A stretch of 42,588 nt of DNA from Odoribacter sp. OttesenSCG-928-L07. Lineage in GTDB: Bacteria; Bacteroidota; Bacteroidia; Bacteroidales; BM520. The translations under genes were made by a program, and so were the position numbers. Positions 27,331 through 36,295 of the stretch are shown here, in pieces (position 1 is the first letter of the stretch; each line of letters opens with the position of its first letter). Under the pieces are notes generated by a model that was not told the origin of the DNA, did no database searches, and was given only the letters and a program-made list of their open reading frames with translations. The stretch is taken from positions 1 to 42,588 of the forward strand of contig JAJDHA010000009.1 in the NCBI GenBank assembly GCA_030265965.1. Reading direction: 5' to 3'.

Positions 27331-28236
27331 TTACAAATCGTTGAGCGGATGATATTTATCGACAACATCTCTTAAATGTTGCTTGTTGATATGTGTGTAA
27401 ATCTCTGTTGTTAATATAGATTCATGCCCTAACATATCTTGCACGATTCTTATATCCGCTCCACGTTGTATCATATGAGTTGCAAAAGAATGTCTAAAAG
27501 TATGCGGACTAATATTCTTCTTTATTCCCGCCTTTTCTGTTAATTCTTTAACGATAATAAATATCATCTCTCGCGACAACTTTCCTCCTCGCCTGTTCAA
27601 AAACAAAATATCTTCCGACTTCTTTGAAGGATTAATGTGCAATCTGTAATTGTCTAAATATATTTCAACTTGTTTTAGTGCTGTTTTACCTAATGGCACC
27701 AACCTCTCCTTATTTCCCTTTCCTTTTACTTTAATAAACATCACTTCTCTATCAATATCCGAAACCCTAAGGTTAATTAATTCTGAAACTCTTAATCCAC
27801 AACCATACAACATTTCAATTATTGCTCTATTTCTTTGACCATTGGGAAGGCTTAAATCAATTGAGTCAATAATTTTATTAACATCTTCAATACTTAAAAC
27901 ATCCGGCAAATGTTTGTCGAGCTGGGGTAAGTCTATCATATCCATAGGACTTTCGGAGATAATTTTTTCCAGCTTTAAATATTTAAAAAAGGAACGCAAA
28001 GACGAGATTATGCGCGATTGCGTAGGTTTACTTTTCTTTTGCTCATTAACATTAATTAAATATTCTGAAATAATATCCGAATTGATTGCTGTAATACTAA
28101 TTTCATTATATTTTTCATCAATAAATTGAAGAAAGAATTTCACATCACGAAGATAACTTTCAATAGTATTATTTGAAAGTGCTCTTTCGATCTTTAAGTA
28201 TGAAGAGTAATTGTTGTGGTATTGTTTAAGGTTCAA
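27331..28236 (-). CDS. xerD: Site-specific tyrosine recombinase XerD
   Basis: XerD with XerC resolves chromosome dimers at dif. The 301 residues and domain order (SAM-like N-terminal core-binding domain about 5-90, catalytic domain about 110-295) are standard. Catalytic residues are visible: R149 in GCGLRVSEL, K173, H245 and R248 in HTFRHSFATH, H271 in LGHESILTT and Y280 in EIYTH. No ATG is available before the conserved KIERALSNNTIESYLRD; the frame starts with TTG at 28236 and a stop lies two codons upstream. This TTG falls in the AACCTTA heptad repeat. Confidence 0.92.
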   Translation of the reverse strand: MNLKQYHNNYSSYLKIERALSNNTIESYLRDVKFFLQFIDEKYNEISITAINSDIISEYLINVNEQKKSKPTQSRIISSLRSFFKYLKLEKIISESPMDMIDLPQLDKHLPDVLSIEDVNKIIDSIDLSLPNGQRNRAIIEMLYGCGLRVSELINLRVSDIDREVMFIKVKGKGNKERLVPLGKTALKQVEIYLDNYRLHINPSKKSEDILFLNRRGGKLSREMIFIIVKELTEKAGIKKNISPHTFRHSFATHMIQRGADIRIVQDMLGHESILTTEIYTHINKQHLRDVVDKYHPLNDL

Positions 28237-28270
28237 TGTTTAAGGTTTGAAGGTTTAAGGTTTAAGGTTT
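28224..28270. repeat. Degenerate heptad repeat (AACCTTA on minus strand)
   Basis: About six and a half tandem copies of a 7-base unit (AACCTTA, with variants AACCTTC and AACATTG) precede and overlap the xerD start. The TTG start codon is part of the AACATTG variant. Confidence 0.75.
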
Positions 28271-28272
28271 AC

Positions 28273-28299
28273 AAAAAAAGGTTGTCGAATGACAACCTT
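28273..28299 (-). terminator. Rho-independent terminator after tRNA-Leu
   Basis: On the minus strand AAGGTTGTC (28299-28291) pairs with GACAACCTT (28286-28278), with a four-base loop and a T run after it. It ends the tRNA-Gly/tRNA-Leu unit before xerD. Confidence 0.88.
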
Positions 28300-28307
28300 C
28301 TCATTAG

Positions 28308-28392
28308 TACCCGGGGTGGGACTTGAACCCACACGCCTGCAATAGGCAAGGGATTTTAAGTCCCTCGTGTCTACCAATTCCACCACCTGGGC
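28308..28392 (-). tRNA. tRNA-Leu (anticodon TAA)
   Basis: The 85-base tRNA has a long variable arm. The anticodon loop CTTAAAA gives TAA, reading UUA and UUG. The discriminator is A and CCA is not encoded. The acceptor stem GCCCAGG faces CCCGGGT, leaving an A-C mismatch at position 5:68; the rest pairs well. Confidence 0.93.
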
Positions 28393-28401
28393 GCCTTTGG
28401 C

Positions 28402-28429
28402 AAAAAAAGTCTCGTTTGAGACTTTTTTT
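28402..28429. terminator. Bidirectional hairpin between tRNA-Gly and tRNA-Leu
   Basis: AAAAAAAGTCTC (28402-28413) pairs with GAGACTTTTTTT (28418-28429) around a four-base loop, giving a T run on either strand. It would terminate tRNA-Gly transcription before tRNA-Leu, or be partly read through, since no clear -7 box precedes tRNA-Leu. Confidence 0.75.
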
Positions 28430-28430
28430 G

Positions 28431-28503
<73 letters not shown>

Positions 28504-28601: not shown

Positions 28602-30494
28602 TTATCTAACGATAAGTTTTGTAGATTCTGATGCAGAACCACTATTAGCTACAATTACATAAACACCCGGTTTAAATGATTGAACATCTAAATCAACATT
28701 TCCACCATTATGTTTGAATGATTTTACTACTTGACCAACAGAGTTATAAATATTAACTTGAGCTTCATTATCTAAGTAAATATTTGCATAAGAAGAAGCC
28801 GGATTAGGATAAACTTTCATTTCTAATTCAGAAACTTGATTTTCGTAATCTTTAATACTTATTACATTAACCAAATTAACAGTCATACCATAATAGTAAT
28901 TATCATCTGGATCTGTATCAGCACCTGAACCACTTGACATTGTAATAGTATAAGTATCAGGCATCATATCTTGTTGATAGATAATATTCATTTTCTTTGT
29001 TGAAGTTGCGAATATTTTATTTGACATCCAAGGATATACACATTCGTTAAGAGCATGCAAAGGTCCTTTTGTTAACATTTCAATTTCTGACCATGTTTCA
29101 CCTTCATCTTGAGATGCTCTTGCGAAAATTCTAAAATATTCAAATTCATCAATTTCATAACCTGCTGCAATAGAAATATAAACAATGAAAATAGTATTAC
29201 TTTCATAATCGATAGCTATAGAAGGCATACCAACAATACCGCAGTTGTATGATCCCGGAGCAAATTTTGGATAAACTTCTCCCCAATTGTTTGGATCTGG
29301 ATCAGTAGAAGGAACACCTTCTGCAGTCATAGGAACAACATAACCCATATAATAAGAAGGCATTTCACCTATTGCATCACTGTAGCACCATGTTGAAGCA
29401 TGAATTCCGGCAACAGCAGTTGAATCCAATACAGAATAACTTTCATTCCAATATGCAACACCACCTCTTGCTTTAACGTAAGTACCACCTGTTTCGCTGG
29501 TAAAATTAAATTCATAAGCAATATGCAAGTAACCTTCAGCATCCCATGCGCCAGAAACCCAACGTGGGTAAGTCAGTTGGCTATCAGCAGTAGGTGTTAA
29601 TGAAGCTGCCATTGGATCCGGATGATTGTAGAAAACTGTTCTATTCCAAGAATCACCATCATTATCTGAATAAATAACTTGACCGTCACACCATTCATCA
29701 GCAAGAACAAAAGATAAACGGTTAGGAATATAAGGATGATCCATATCTGTTGTTTCCATAAAATGGAAAGCATTAGATCCAATTTTATTAGCTTGGATAT
29801 AATCTGTACCTACGAATGGAATCTCTATTTCTACCCAAGAGTCACCACCATCATTTGATCTAAAATAAACTACATTTCCATCACTTGTTGAAGTAATAGT
29901 TAATACGTGAATAATATCACGATTTTCACCACTTGTCATAACTGATGGGAAAACATTAGGAGTATCAATAGTTTTTTTCACCCAATTTGTACCTGTTCTA
30001 TTATCAGAAAGATAAACTGTAATACCTGCACCTGCGTGAGCAGCAATAACAACACCATTTTCTCCATAACGAGCTATTGTACTGAAACCTGTTTTTTCAT
30101 CCTCAATTTTACCACCTGATTCATGCCAAGTAGTACCATCATAATATGCATAAGCTGAACCTCTATCAGTATAGTCAGTTTCGAGTGCTTGTGTATATGT
30201 TGCACTAATCCAACCATCTTCCCAAGCAACCATTTGGTTTCTTGCACCTGAATTGGTTTGCCAGTCATAAACAGATTTACCAATGTTTTTTTCGCTAATA
30301 CTACCTACAAAAGTAGGTACAGTTTCTTTTGTAGGAACAAAAGTAGTAGATTCTTCACCGCTAACAGCCTCAAACCCATTCACATAAACTTTTTGTGTTT
30401 GAACCATCTTGTCAGCTACTCTTTGTACTTCTTTTTGAGCTACCATTACGCTCGAAAGAAATAACATAACAATTAATAGTAGATTTCTTTTCAT
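28602..30494 (-). CDS. Secreted Asp-box (BNR) beta-propeller protein with T9SS type A sorting domain (paralog 1)
   Basis: This 630-residue protein is predicted to be secreted or surface-anchored through the type IX system. Residues 1-20 form a signal peptide (MKRNLLLIVMLFLSSVMVAQ). Three Asp-boxes, S-x-D-x-G-x-T/S-W-like, are at residues 213-220 (SNDGGDSW), 276-283 (SDNDGDSW) and 461-468 (SQDEGETW), as in sialidase-type propellers. The last 70 or so residues are a T9SS tail beginning VYPNPASSYANIYLD. I could not confirm sialidase catalytic residues, so enzymatic activity is open; a binding role is equally possible. It is followed by its own terminator and preceded by a TATCTTTGC box. A paralog lies 366 bases upstream. 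Confidence 0.85.
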   Translation of the reverse strand: MKRNLLLIVMLFLSSVMVAQKEVQRVADKMVQTQKVYVNGFEAVSGEESTTFVPTKETVPTFVGSISEKNIGKSVYDWQTNSGARNQMVAWEDGWISATYTQALETDYTDRGSAYAYYDGTTWHESGGKIEDEKTGFSTIARYGENGVVIAAHAGAGITVYLSDNRTGTNWVKKTIDTPNVFPSVMTSGENRDIIHVLTITSTSDGNVVYFRSNDGGDSWVEIEIPFVGTDYIQANKIGSNAFHFMETTDMDHPYIPNRLSFVLADEWCDGQVIYSDNDGDSWNRTVFYNHPDPMAASLTPTADSQLTYPRWVSGAWDAEGYLHIAYEFNFTSETGGTYVKARGGVAYWNESYSVLDSTAVAGIHASTWCYSDAIGEMPSYYMGYVVPMTAEGVPSTDPDPNNWGEVYPKFAPGSYNCGIVGMPSIAIDYESNTIFIVYISIAAGYEIDEFEYFRIFARASQDEGETWSEIEMLTKGPLHALNECVYPWMSNKIFATSTKKMNIIYQQDMMPDTYTITMSSGSGADTDPDDNYYYGMTVNLVNVISIKDYENQVSELEMKVYPNPASSYANIYLDNEAQVNIYNSVGQVVKSFKHNGGNVDLDVQSFKPGVYVIVANSGSASESTKLIVR

Positions 30495-30860: not shown

Positions 30861-32750
30861 TTATTTAACAATAAGCTTAATTGATGTAGAGGCTGAGCCA
30901 CTATTAGCAACTACCATATAAACACCCGGTTTAAATGATTGAACATCCATATCAACATTTCCTCCATTATGTTTGAATGATTTTACTGCTTGACCTACTG
31001 AGTTATAAACATTAATTTGAGCTTCATTATCCAAATAAATATTTGCATAAGTAGATGCCGGGTTAGGATAAACATTCATCTCTAATGCAGCAGCTTGACC
31101 TTCGTAATCTTTAACACTATTAAAATCGATAAGATTAACAGTTATACCAAAATAATAGTTATCAAATGCATCTGGATCTTCATCTTGAACATATGATCCC
31201 GGATACATATCTTGTTGATAAATAACATGTAATTTGTTTTTACCGGCAGTTAAAAGTTTATTTGACATGTGTGGATATACACATTCATTAAGCATGTGCA
31301 AAGGACCTTTAGTTAACATTTCAACATCTGACCAAGTTTGACCATAGTCTTGAGATGCTCTTGCAAAGATTCTAAAATAATCCAAATCATCTATAGAAAA
31401 ACCTTCAGCAGAAGAAATGTAAACAACATAAATCATATCAGTATCATAATCTATAGCTATAGAAGGCATACCTACAATACCGCAGTTATATTTACCATGA
31501 TCAAGAAGAGCAGTAGTTCCGGCCCATGTAGAAGGATCTGTATTTACAGGTACACCATTTGCAAGAGGAACTAAGTATCCCATATACTCATTAGGCATTG
31601 GACCTGTAGCATCGGAATAAAACCAACCTGTTGAAAATATACTTTCAATATAAGTGGTATCCATTATTTGCATATCTTCATTCCAGTATGCAACACCACC
31701 TAATCCGGGTTGATATTGTGTTAGACCTGCACCGTCATGATTTGTTCTATTAAACTCATAAGCAACATGTAAATAACCGTCTTTATCCCATGCAGCTGAT
31801 GGCCAACGCGGATACATGTACATATCATAAACTGAAGTAAGTGGGAAAGGGTTCTCAAAGAAAATTGTTCTATTCCAAGAATCACCATCATTATCAGAAT
31901 AGATAACTTGACCGTCAATACCACCATCTGATAAAACAAAAGATAAACGGTTTGGACAATATGGATGATCAGCTGAAGTGGTTTCCATAAAATAATATGA
32001 GTTTGAACCAATAAATTTATCTAATATATAAGCAGGACCAACAAATTCAATTACATGTTCATGCATATCCCATGTTAAACCACCATCCTTAGATCTGTAA
32101 TACAGCAAATTACCACCTTTAATAGTAGTCGCAGCAACATCTTGGTCAACAGCAATAACATGAATAATTTCATTATTTTCACCGCTTGTCATTACTGATG
32201 GCCATGCACCTTCGGTTGTAATTACAACTTCTCTCCAGCTACTTCCTATTCTATCTTCACAAATAGATACGATAATATCTGATCCGCCATGAGCAGCAAT
32301 AACAACACCATTTTCTCCATAACGAGCAATTGAGCCAAAGCCTGTTCTCTGAGTTTCAACTCTACCTTCAGAAGCATGCCAGCTTGTGCCATCATAATAT
32401 GCATAAGCAGAGCCTCTATTTGCATAATTTGCTTCAGATGTTTGTGTAAAAGTAGCACTTACCCAGCCATCTTCCCAAAATACAACTTGGTTTCTTGCAC
32501 TGGAATTTGTTTGCCAGTCATACACAGTTTGTCCGATATTTGTTTCTTTAATACCGTTTTCTTCAATAAAAGTATAACCACCGTTTTTAAAAGGAACAAA
32601 AGTAGCATCACTTTGATTTGTTGGAGTTTCAAAACCGGAAAGTTGGATTTTTGTTGCAGGTTTCACACCATCTTGTCTTGACACCTTATTTTGAGCAACA
32701 AGAGCCCCTGTTAATAAAACCATAACAATTAATAGTAAATTTTTTCTCAT
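30861..32750 (-). CDS. Secreted Asp-box (BNR) beta-propeller protein with T9SS type A sorting domain (paralog 2)
   Basis: This 629-residue protein is collinear with the product of 28602-30494. Both share a signal peptide (MRKNLLLIVMVLLTGALVAQ here), SVYDWQTNS/TVYDWQTNS, DRGSAYAYYDG/NRGSAYAYYDG, the ARYGENGVVIAAH block, YNCGIVGMPSIAIDY and a nearly identical T9SS tail. Asp-boxes are SKDGGLTW, SDNDGDSW and SQDYGQTW. The divergence is greatest in the first 70 residues and in loops. It is transcribed separately, with its own terminator and a TATCTTCGC box at 32809-32817. Function is not established; a surface glycan-related role is suggested only by the propeller type. Confidence 0.85.
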   Translation of the reverse strand: MRKNLLLIVMVLLTGALVAQNKVSRQDGVKPATKIQLSGFETPTNQSDATFVPFKNGGYTFIEENGIKETNIGQTVYDWQTNSSARNQVVFWEDGWVSATFTQTSEANYANRGSAYAYYDGTSWHASEGRVETQRTGFGSIARYGENGVVIAAHGGSDIIVSICEDRIGSSWREVVITTEGAWPSVMTSGENNEIIHVIAVDQDVAATTIKGGNLLYYRSKDGGLTWDMHEHVIEFVGPAYILDKFIGSNSYYFMETTSADHPYCPNRLSFVLSDGGIDGQVIYSDNDGDSWNRTIFFENPFPLTSVYDMYMYPRWPSAAWDKDGYLHVAYEFNRTNHDGAGLTQYQPGLGGVAYWNEDMQIMDTTYIESIFSTGWFYSDATGPMPNEYMGYLVPLANGVPVNTDPSTWAGTTALLDHGKYNCGIVGMPSIAIDYDTDMIYVVYISSAEGFSIDDLDYFRIFARASQDYGQTWSDVEMLTKGPLHMLNECVYPHMSNKLLTAGKNKLHVIYQQDMYPGSYVQDEDPDAFDNYYFGITVNLIDFNSVKDYEGQAAALEMNVYPNPASTYANIYLDNEAQINVYNSVGQAVKSFKHNGGNVDMDVQSFKPGVYMVVANSGSASTSIKLIVK

Positions 32751-32898: not shown

Positions 32899-32907
32899 TA
32901 CATTTGC
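32899..32907 (+). promoter_or_regulatory. -7 box before gatE
   Basis: TACATTTGC matches TAnnTTTG, with a leader of about 30 bases before ATG 32944. Confidence 0.6.
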
Positions 32908-32943
32908 AATCTTTAAATAAAAAATTTACAAAAGTTTAGTTTA

Positions 32944-34908
32944 ATGAAGAAAAACTTTGATCCACGAAAAAATTATGAAGCCACAAAAGTAAAGGTGGGG
33001 TATGTTAATCGCAAAGATGCAACCCAAACATTATATGATAAAATGGGCTTTATGTCGGGACTGGAAGTACACCAACAGCTAAAAACTAAGAAAAAATTAT
33101 TTTGCAACTGTCCTGCAGGTATCTATAACGACAACTCACATTTTGATGCAGAAGTTATTCGTCACATGCGCCCAACTCTCAGCGAACTTGGCGAATATGA
33201 CGGCACTGCTCTAATGGAGTTTAAAACGAAAAAAACAATCGTTTACAAATTAAAAAACGAAACTACATGTACTTACGAAATAGATGATACTCCACCCTTC
33301 CCTATCGACAGGGAAGCTTTAGATATTGCTATAGAAATAGCATTTTTATCAAAATTAAATACAGTAGGTGAAGTACATATTACTCGCAAACAATATCTTG
33401 ACGGAAGTATTCCTGCCGGTTCTCAGAGAACTGCAATTATTGGCGTTGATGGTGAAATACCAATAAGTAATAAGAAAATTCGATTAGTTCAATTATGTCT
33501 CGAGGAAGATACTTGTCGAGAAATATCAAATATCGGACATACAAGGGTATTCAAAACCGACCGTTTTGGAATGCCGCTAATTGAAACTGTTACACATCCC
33601 GATATGGTTAATCCTGACGAAGTAAAAGAAGCATGTGATTATATTCGCTTTTTAAATCGTTCAACAAATAAGGTTAGAATAGGTATCGGTTCGGGTCGAC
33701 AAGATGTTAATGTTAGTTGCAAAGGAGGAAATCGAGTCGAAATCAAAGGTGTTTCAAAGACCAAACTTTTACCTGAGCTTACGCATAATGAATGTTTTAG
33801 ACAATGGGCGTTAATACATATTAAGGATATATTAACCAAACGTATCAATGTAAAAAGCTGGAAAATTTCGACTAAGAAGCTAAATTTCTTTGATTACAAC
33901 TTCAGCTATTCCCCTGCAATAGAAGCTAATAACAGAAAAGACAAATTCTACGCTGTTAATCTTCCTGAATTTAAAGGTATTCTATCACATTTTACTCAAC
34001 CAGGAAAGTGTTTTATTAATGAATTATCCGACAGATTAAAAGTTATTGCTTGTATTGAAAAACCAAACATGATAACTTCCGAAGATATTGAAAACACTGA
34101 GGACAGAAAAATATTTACAAAAATAGCAAGTATGTTTAATGCCGGAGAAAATGATGCACAAATTATTTTCTGGGCGCCAAAAGAAGATATAGATACTGCG
34201 ATAAGCACTATTAGCGAAAGATGCAAATTAGCTTTCTTTGAGGTTCCAAAAGAAACCAGAAAATATAACTTAGATGGTACTACTGAGTTTAAGAGAGTTC
34301 TACCAGGTGCAAACAGAATGTACCCTGACACAGATTCTCCACCAATTCCATTAGCTTCGGAACACTTGAAAAATATTCAAGCTAATCTACCATCCGACGT
34401 ATCTGAACGTACTGCACAAATGATTAAGTGGAATATTCCTAAAGATACTTTTACTTATCTGCATGTAAACAATTTATTTCCACTCATTAATAAGATTGCT
34501 AATGAGTTAGCTTATGAACCAAAATTTATTGCCTGTTTTTTAGGTCATCAACTAAAACATATAGAAGGACAATTTAATGCAAGAAAATTAGATTACAACA
34601 AAATTTATCAAATCTTTGAATTTATTAAAAAAAGAAAACTTGATAAAGAAATCGCGTTTAAAATATTGCCTGTTCTATTTGAGCATCCACAAATGGACTT
34701 CGACTCTATACTTGAAAGTATCAATTTTAGAAAGCATAATAATAATGGTATAATATCAAATATTTCTTTTCTAAAAAACAAATACAACGAAATTGGAAAA
34801 ACAAAAACAGATGAGGCAAGGAATAATTGGGTTATGGGACAATTAAATAATATTGCAGTAGGTAATATTTCAATGAATGAATTAAAAAATATTGTAAAAG
34901 GCGTTTAG
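32944..34908 (+). CDS. gatE: Archaeal-type Glu-tRNA(Gln) amidotransferase subunit E
   Basis: GatE is the kinase/amidotransferase subunit that activates the glutamate of misacylated Glu-tRNA(Gln) and amidates it to Gln-tRNA(Gln) with ammonia from GatD. The 654 residues show the GatB/GatE core: GLEVHQQL at 39-46, LFCNCPAG, YLDGSIPAGSQRT near 151-163, DRFGMPLIETVTHPDM, RQDVNVSCKGGNRVEIKGV near 252-270. It also has the GatE-specific region with MYPDTDSPPIPL and the C-terminal YqeY-like tail ending in NELKNIVKG. These distinguish it from bacterial GatB, which is shorter and lacks the AspRS-like insert. gatD follows one base after the stop. GatDE is regarded as an archaeal enzyme, so this looks like an inter-domain transfer. 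Confidence 0.92.
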   Translation: MKKNFDPRKNYEATKVKVGYVNRKDATQTLYDKMGFMSGLEVHQQLKTKKKLFCNCPAGIYNDNSHFDAEVIRHMRPTLSELGEYDGTALMEFKTKKTIVYKLKNETTCTYEIDDTPPFPIDREALDIAIEIAFLSKLNTVGEVHITRKQYLDGSIPAGSQRTAIIGVDGEIPISNKKIRLVQLCLEEDTCREISNIGHTRVFKTDRFGMPLIETVTHPDMVNPDEVKEACDYIRFLNRSTNKVRIGIGSGRQDVNVSCKGGNRVEIKGVSKTKLLPELTHNECFRQWALIHIKDILTKRINVKSWKISTKKLNFFDYNFSYSPAIEANNRKDKFYAVNLPEFKGILSHFTQPGKCFINELSDRLKVIACIEKPNMITSEDIENTEDRKIFTKIASMFNAGENDAQIIFWAPKEDIDTAISTISERCKLAFFEVPKETRKYNLDGTTEFKRVLPGANRMYPDTDSPPIPLASEHLKNIQANLPSDVSERTAQMIKWNIPKDTFTYLHVNNLFPLINKIANELAYEPKFIACFLGHQLKHIEGQFNARKLDYNKIYQIFEFIKKRKLDKEIAFKILPVLFEHPQMDFDSILESINFRKHNNNGIISNISFLKNKYNEIGKTKTDEARNNWVMGQLNNIAVGNISMNELKNIVKGV

Positions 34909-34909
34909 T

Positions 34910-36295
34910 ATGGATAATGAATTTTTTCAAGGATATAGAGGTCAGGCTTTAGAAGTTTTAAAGCAATACAATGTACGGGTTTGGGGGAAAGCAACAATTA
35001 CTACTACTCGCGGCAATTTTGAAGGCACTGTTCTTCCAAGATCTTGTAATGATGATGAAAAACATATTGTTATAAAGATAGAATCGGGATATAATATTGG
35101 TATTGACGTAGAAACAATTACCAACATGAAAGAAACCGGTTATAACAAGGTCAATTTTAAGATACAAGAGAAAGATTTTCCATCTGTACAAGGTTTACCC
35201 ACAGTAAAATTATTTGGAACAGGCGGTACTATCGCATCTCGTTTGGATTATCGTACCGGCGCAGTAATTCCGGCTTTTTCTCCCGGTGAATTATATAGCG
35301 CGGTACCTGAATTAGCAGAAATCTGTAATCTCGAAACTGAAAAAGTATTTGCAGTATTCAGCGAAAACATGGGTCCTACTCATTATATTGCGCTTGCTAA
35401 AGCTATTGCTAAAGAAATTGAGCGCGGAGTTGATGGAATTGTTATCGGACATGGCACCGACACAATGCAACATACAGGCGCCGCCCTAACTTTCATGGTA
35501 CAAAATCCGCCAATTCCTATTATCCTTGTTGGCTCGCAGCGTTCTAGCGACAGACCAAGTTCTGACGCTCCTTTAAATCTTATGCACGCAATGACTGCTG
35601 CCGGTCATGGAGATATTGCTGAAGTAATGGTTTGTATGTACGGCACAACTTCAGATGAATATGGATTGCTACATAAATCAACGAGAGTCAGAAAGATGCA
35701 CTCTTCTTACCGTTCTACATTCAGAACGATTGGCGACACTCCTGTTGCCTCTGTTACAAGAGATGGTGTTACACATATTAAAGAAAATTACAATCCACGC
35801 AGAAAGGACAGAAAAGTAAAGTTACTACCCTATTTCTCCGACAAAGTTACAATGGTTTACTATTATACCGGAATAAAACCGGATGTTATTGATTCGCTTG
35901 TTGATGCCGGTTATAAAGGTATTGTTTTCGTTGGTACAGGATTGGGACACTTAAATAAAGAACTTTATCCCGCTATTGAAAGAGCACACGCAAAAGGTGT
36001 ACACATGTATATGACTTTACAAACTCTTTGGGGATATGTGCAAATGTTTGTATATGATACCGGAAGAGATATTATGGCAAAAGGGGTAATCCCATGTGGA
36101 AATATGCTGCCGGAAGTGGCGTTTATTAAACTTAGTTGGGCATTGGGACAAACTGAAGATCCTGAGGAAGTAAAAAGATTGATGCTTACGCCAATCAATG
36201 ATGAAATTACTGAAAGGGAACCTTACAATGGATACGTTCTATTGCAAGGCGGCGTTCCTGAAGTTGATGATTTTTTGGCTAAAACCAGGAAATAA
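34910..36295 (+). CDS. gatD: Archaeal-type Glu-tRNA(Gln) amidotransferase subunit D
   Basis: GatD is the asparaginase-like glutaminase subunit that supplies ammonia to GatE. It has 461 residues: a GatD-specific N-terminal domain (1-90) with RVWGKATITTTRGNFEGTVLPR, then the asparaginase-like domain. Catalytic elements are T107 in FGTGGTIAS, T183-D184 in IGHGTDTMQHTG and K262 in HKSTRVRKMHSS. The extra N-terminal domain and partnership with GatE exclude plain L-asparaginase. It begins one base after gatE, so the subunits are likely translated in balance. A glycosyltransferase follows 30 bases later. Confidence 0.93.
   Translation: MDNEFFQGYRGQALEVLKQYNVRVWGKATITTTRGNFEGTVLPRSCNDDEKHIVIKIESGYNIGIDVETITNMKETGYNKVNFKIQEKDFPSVQGLPTVKLFGTGGTIASRLDYRTGAVIPAFSPGELYSAVPELAEICNLETEKVFAVFSENMGPTHYIALAKAIAKEIERGVDGIVIGHGTDTMQHTGAALTFMVQNPPIPIILVGSQRSSDRPSSDAPLNLMHAMTAAGHGDIAEVMVCMYGTTSDEYGLLHKSTRVRKMHSSYRSTFRTIGDTPVASVTRDGVTHIKENYNPRRKDRKVKLLPYFSDKVTMVYYYTGIKPDVIDSLVDAGYKGIVFVGTGLGHLNKELYPAIERAHAKGVHMYMTLQTLWGYVQMFVYDTGRDIMAKGVIPCGNMLPEVAFIKLSWALGQTEDPEEVKRLMLTPINDEITEREPYNGYVLLQGGVPEVDDFLAKTRK

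Follow-up and report, generated by a model that had tools for sequence, protein, structure and literature searches.

The closest described relatives of the locus reported here are the archaeal GatDE amidotransferases, with solved structures from Pyrococcus abyssi (1zq1) and Methanothermobacter thermautotrophicus (2d6f). These have the same two subunit families, domain order and catalytic residues as the bacterial pair, including the GatE fold and a dedicated asparaginase-type glutaminase, and are 33% (GatE) and 44–46% (GatD) identical to it. They differ from it in that bacterial GatD has an extra C-terminal tail, and the bacterial hosts have GlnRS, a bacterial GluRS and a U1-A72 tRNA(Gln). Bacterial GatCAB shares the GatB cradle, the YqeY tail and the predicted Glu-tRNA(Gln) chemistry, but GatE of the present locus contains an AspRS-like insert, and the glutaminase is GatD where that of GatCAB is the GatA amidase. 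According to a 2022 review, and likewise a 2021 review, GatDE is nowadays restricted to archaea, and this archaeal-only distribution enters arguments on LUCA, on archaea never having adopted GlnRS and on how GatDE and archaeal tRNA(Gln) co-evolved (PMC9499178). A survey from 2014, which covered 547 bacterial genera, knew of no bacteria with both routes to Gln-tRNA(Gln) (PMC4206432). Bdellovibrio and Deinococcus, which have GlnRS, AsnRS and GatCAB, resemble the hosts described here in retaining an amidotransferase despite a direct synthetase, but theirs serves Asn-tRNA(Asn) (PMC4206432). No earlier report of a bacterial GatDE was found in the literature searched, to which subscription papers mostly did not belong; automatic annotation has probably already named these bacterial genes, and a prior mention is possible.

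The window, meaning the whole stretch of DNA analysed (42,588 nucleotides), belongs to the metagenome-assembled genome (MAG) of an uncultured member of the Bacteroidales, of which 1.67 Mb is assembled (74% complete). The features of interest are as follows.

32899..32906, + strand: candidate Bacteroidota -7 element TACATTTG, 37 bases upstream of the gatE start codon, identified by consensus alone
32944..34908, + strand: gatE, 654 aa, predicted GatB-like cradle, AspRS-like insert, helical domain and YqeY-like tail (profile, structure and alignment evidence)
34910..36295, + strand: gatD, 461 aa, predicted GatD N-terminal domain and asparaginase-type glutaminase (profile, structure and alignment evidence)
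36224..36292, + strand: conserved C-terminal tail of GatD, codons 439–461, NGY....QGG.PEV..F (alignments)

Both reading frames are intact, lie on the + strand and are separated by 1 base. The original prediction also placed a Bacteroidota-type promoter ahead of the pair. TACATTTG at 32899–32906 fits the -7 element, and inspection of the sequence upstream of gatE showed no clear -33 TTG.

GatE scored above the cut-offs of two NCBI equivalog models, NF003107 (469.5 bits, cut-off 456) and TIGR00134 (413.4 bits, cut-off 319.55). GatB models gave 47–126 bits, far under their cut-offs of 315–680, and GatE is thus not a GatB equivalog; in Pfam, the GatB_N match was stretched across a large insert. 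The closest solved structures were the GatDE complexes of P. abyssi and Methanothermobacter (290 and 284 bits, vs 61 for the best GatB). An AF2 model of GatE (mean pLDDT 79.5, with some poor stretches) gave 1zq1_C and 2d6f_C/D as top Foldseek matches, followed by GatB structures and, weakly, several AspRS. The weak AspRS matches fit the AspRS-like insert that had been proposed, and the proposed YqeY-like tail carries a conserved MG...G motif. Residues E41, H43, E187, E188 and E214, which we take to be the metal- and ATP-site residues of the active site, did not vary among the 41 bacterial and 2 archaeal sequences compared.

GatD gave 496.4 bits against the NCBI equivalog model TIGR02153 (cut-off 324) and 46.0 bits against Pfam GatD_N (PF18195, cut-off 25.7), followed in Pfam by both asparaginase domains; asparaginase profile models gave much lower scores. 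The closest solved structures were again those of P. abyssi and Methanothermobacter GatDE (388 and 386 bits), vs 148 bits for the best asparaginase. A free-standing type I or II asparaginase was rejected on this difference, on the presence of GatD_N and on the adjacent gatE. The extra N-terminal domain noticed at the outset is therefore borne out by PF18195, and T107, T183, D184 and K262, assumed here to be the catalytic Thr-Thr-Asp-Lys set, were invariant in the same 43 sequences. With both proteins above equivalog cut-offs and their catalytic residues kept, the pair is confirmed as a genuine GatDE of archaeal type in the genome of a member of the Bacteroidota. The motif NGY....QGG.PEV..F of bacterial GatD lies past the end of both the archaeal GatD alignments and the TIGR02153 match, in a tail of low AF2 confidence. 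GatD proteins of rumen-type MAGs (L228, L231, L238 and L241) showed 27–30 gap positions relative to the window protein, which suggests an insertion.

Mean identity of bacterial sequences to the two archaeal sequences was 45–47% for GatD and 33–36% for GatE, and the two main Bacteroidota groups were 67% (GatD) and 42% (GatE) identical to one another. Compared with these two archaeal sequences, the bacterial proteins form a subfamily of their own.

That the assembly is metagenomic and the protein families are of archaeal type would fit archaeal contamination or a chimeric contig. Against this, independent genomes of the same genus share the locus order (aminotransferase genes, xerD, tRNA-Leu and tRNA-Gly, gatE, gatD, a glycosyltransferase gene and gyrB), identity to a same-genus copy is 76% for GatE and 86% for GatD vs 30–48% to archaea, the GC3 of gatDE resembles that of neighbouring gyrB, and relatives occur in isolate genomes. 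The synteny test thus ran against a chimera, as the original prediction had held from the flanking genes, and the probability left to one is negligible. The GatDE tree within the family tracks genus and family; because of this and of the locus shared within the genus, the locus is regarded as native. In the window, the xerD gene (27331–28503) lies with tRNA-Leu and tRNA-Gly near gatDE; the loci of the same genus likewise contain an xerD-type gene and the two tRNAs. Just upstream of gatE, at 28602–30494 and 30861–32750 (-), are tandem paralogues of ~630 aa that carry sorting tails for type IX secretion; they were not seen at the corresponding place in same-genus loci L093–L096.

Both genes are under strong purifying selection: dN/dS was 0.005–0.084 in each of the ten comparisons for which dS could be estimated. 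A decaying relic of an older pathway, with no current role, would fit a patchy distribution across the order and redundancy with GlnRS, but is very improbable given these ratios in both genes and catalytic residues that are invariant across the phylum. With dN/dS below 0.09, intact frames and same-genus synteny, the pair is native and probably functional, as had been supposed.

How many other Bacteroidota carry the pair had been left open. GatD scored above its cut-off in 55 of 119 relatives in the order, including every sampled genome of the genus and family, and GatE in 50 of the 119, with partial genes in three more. In a phylum-wide draw, GatE passed its cut-off in 30 of 395 genomes, all but the source genome outside its class; the carriers outside the class fall in at least seven families, usually with GatB there too. 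About half of the sampled order genomes thus have GatDE, as do at least seven families beyond the class; GatDE is no rarity in the order, and the finding is larger than first supposed. A scan of GTDB species contigs confirmed at least 562 relatives. By title, the best 80 of these were nearly all Bacteroidales or Bacteroidetes and included the isolates Marinifilum flexuosum DSM 21950, Labilibaculum euxinus A4, Labilibaculum sp. K2S and Perlabentimonas gracilis. Six records titled Aminicenantes, Chlorobiota, Cloacimonadota or Archangium (L218, L219, L256, L257, L263 and L266) have GatE 55–61% identical to that of the window; their GatE falls inside Bacteroidales diversity, and the records are mislabelled, misbinned or the product of transfer.

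Pairwise distances correlated with those of GluRS at 0.23 for GatE and 0.28 for GatD, and the GlnRS–GluRS control, at 0.36, was not clearly higher; the comparison favours neither vertical nor horizontal spread within the order. Carriage by mobile elements was rejected: phages yielded only asparaginase-like matches at 27–28%, bacterial plasmids yielded no GatDE (the plasmid search gave one haloarchaeal replicon, plus GatB), and none was confirmed in viral contigs.

In all 41 neighbourhoods examined the two genes lie side by side, and 68 of the 80 named gatE loci include gatD. A minority of carriers (L201, L209 and L258; genomes G505, G465 and G469) have gatE with no gatD nearby, or the pair split over contigs. 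A search for a functional partner by gene neighbourhood revealed no other neighbour conserved beyond the genus, and the pair seems for this reason to act alone. In two distant carriers, G439 (glnS-gatE-gatD) and G014, glnS adjoins gatDE, a hint of a shared role.

The lineage had been expected to make Gln-tRNA(Gln) without GlnRS or GatCAB. For GatCAB this holds: GatB is nearly absent from the order, with GatB-like matches in just 7 of 119 genomes, and a GatB profile search found no further match in the source MAG. For GlnRS it is not supported: of the 55 order genomes with GatD, 50 had GlnRS above cut-off (as did 108 of all 119 order genomes), and GlnRS was present, together with GatD, in 7 of 7 other sampled relatives (four species of the same genus and three of the same family). 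GlnRS was likewise found in 26 of 29 GatDE carriers outside the class, in 17 of 18 named carriers, including all cultured ones (Marinifilum flexuosum, Labilibaculum and Perlabentimonas), and in 45 of 50 of a second named set that overlaps the first by one, plus one carrier with an N-interrupted gene. A GlnRS pseudogene in that carrier (G540) was rejected; its glnS is counted as present because the breaks in the gene are runs of N. As most carriers at every level surveyed have GlnRS, coexistence with GatDE is the rule. GlnRS of the same-genus genome G397 looks normal, keeping the equivalents of E. coli Y211 and C229, whose roles we assume for this judgement. Of the three GatDE carriers outside the class in which GlnRS was not found, two (G314 and G287, 99% complete) have GatB-like genes.

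The search of the source genome for glnS and gatB is to be read against this background. Neither gene was found in the assembled 1.67 Mb, and GatD carriers G434, G446 and G474, at 94–99% completeness, also lack GlnRS; both observations would fit GatDE as the sole route to Gln-tRNA(Gln) here, with GlnRS and GatCAB truly missing and a non-discriminating GluRS. However, neither tRNA-Gln nor tRNA-Glu was detected in the MAG, so that the missing GlnRS fits its completeness of 74%; GlnRS occurs in each of the four further species of the genus and in the three of the family; and, by our estimate, 3 misses among 48 carriers at least 90% complete are close to the approximately 2 expected from incompleteness. 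The discriminating type of the Arg in GluRS, described below, speaks against a sole route as well, which we regard as improbable.

Carriers have a single GluRS of bacterial type, and no second GluRS was seen in them. The Arg equivalent to Thermus R358, presumably linked to rejection of tRNA(Gln) and thus favouring discrimination, is kept in carriers and non-carriers alike. The non-discriminating GluRS that had been anticipated is thus not indicated, no such signature having been seen in these proteins. No alignment column of GluRS or GlnRS separated carriers from non-carriers, and adaptation of either enzyme in carriers was rejected.

In all carriers read, tRNA(Gln) has the bacterial U1-A72 form; the source MAG's own gene is absent from the assembly. 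Archaeal GatDE is reported to use tRNA(Gln) with A1:U72 (PMC9499178). Of the host features of the archaeal setting, the absence of GlnRS is not the rule among carriers, a difference that concerns the setting and not the enzyme family, and an A1-U72 tRNA(Gln) was seen in none of those read. Within the order, tRNA(Gln) (L133–L162 and L320–L334) occurs in two forms, one with a 5-nt variable region and a longer D-loop and one with a 4-nt variable region and a shorter D-loop. The 5-nt form was commoner in carriers (23 of 45 vs 9 of 54; Fisher p 4.6e-4, uncorrected for phylogeny), an association taken as suggestive because this form clusters on the tree.

The retained active sites and architecture suggest a Glu-tRNA(Gln) amidotransferase. 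GatD would release ammonia from glutamine, and GatE would use ATP to phosphorylate the glutamate on Glu-tRNA(Gln) and then amidate it to give Gln-tRNA(Gln). The Glu-tRNA(Gln) could come from the single bacterial GluRS or from errors of GlnRS. In these Bacteroidales GatDE would work alongside GlnRS, not in its place, as a second or repair route. What is said here of the substrate, of the direction of transfer, of where the Glu-tRNA(Gln) comes from and of the benefit to the host is what we infer; the substrate is uncertain because tRNA(Gln) of carriers has U1-A72 and GluRS keeps the discriminating-type Arg, and with GlnRS there it is not evident what a second route would gain.

Some weight goes to a repurposed enzyme with a different substrate, for example Asp-tRNA(Asn), for tRNA-dependent asparagine synthesis, or a non-tRNA glutamate: the canonical role is redundant given GlnRS, tRNA(Gln) is without A1:U72, bacterial GatE is just 33–36% identical to archaeal GatE, and GatCAB beside GlnRS and AsnRS provides a precedent (PMC4206432). 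Yet every catalytic residue is kept, as is the tRNA-binding architecture, Glu-tRNA(Gln) is the established substrate of archaeal GatDE, and the occasional linkage is to glnS; we consider repurposing unlikely, though less so than a sole route. Our preferred reading, to which we give a probability of roughly 0.55, is that the pair belongs to a distinct bacterial subfamily and works as a Glu-tRNA(Gln) amidotransferase, present beside GlnRS as a second or repair route. The odds are about even that the hosts own both a direct (GlnRS) and an indirect (GluRS plus GatDE) route, as the first such bacteria known, with a GatDE adapted to U1-A72 tRNA(Gln) and serving perhaps as a conditional pathway or for the repair of Glu-tRNA(Gln).

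The enzyme type itself is known from archaea; what is new is a bacterial GatDE subfamily that coexists with GlnRS. Because carriers are in culture (Marinifilum flexuosum DSM 21950, Labilibaculum and Perlabentimonas), bacterial GatDE is directly testable. A large bacterial branch of GatDE in hosts with GlnRS and a bacterial tRNA(Gln) bears on the arguments concerning LUCA, the uptake of GlnRS and the co-evolution of GatDE with tRNA(Gln).
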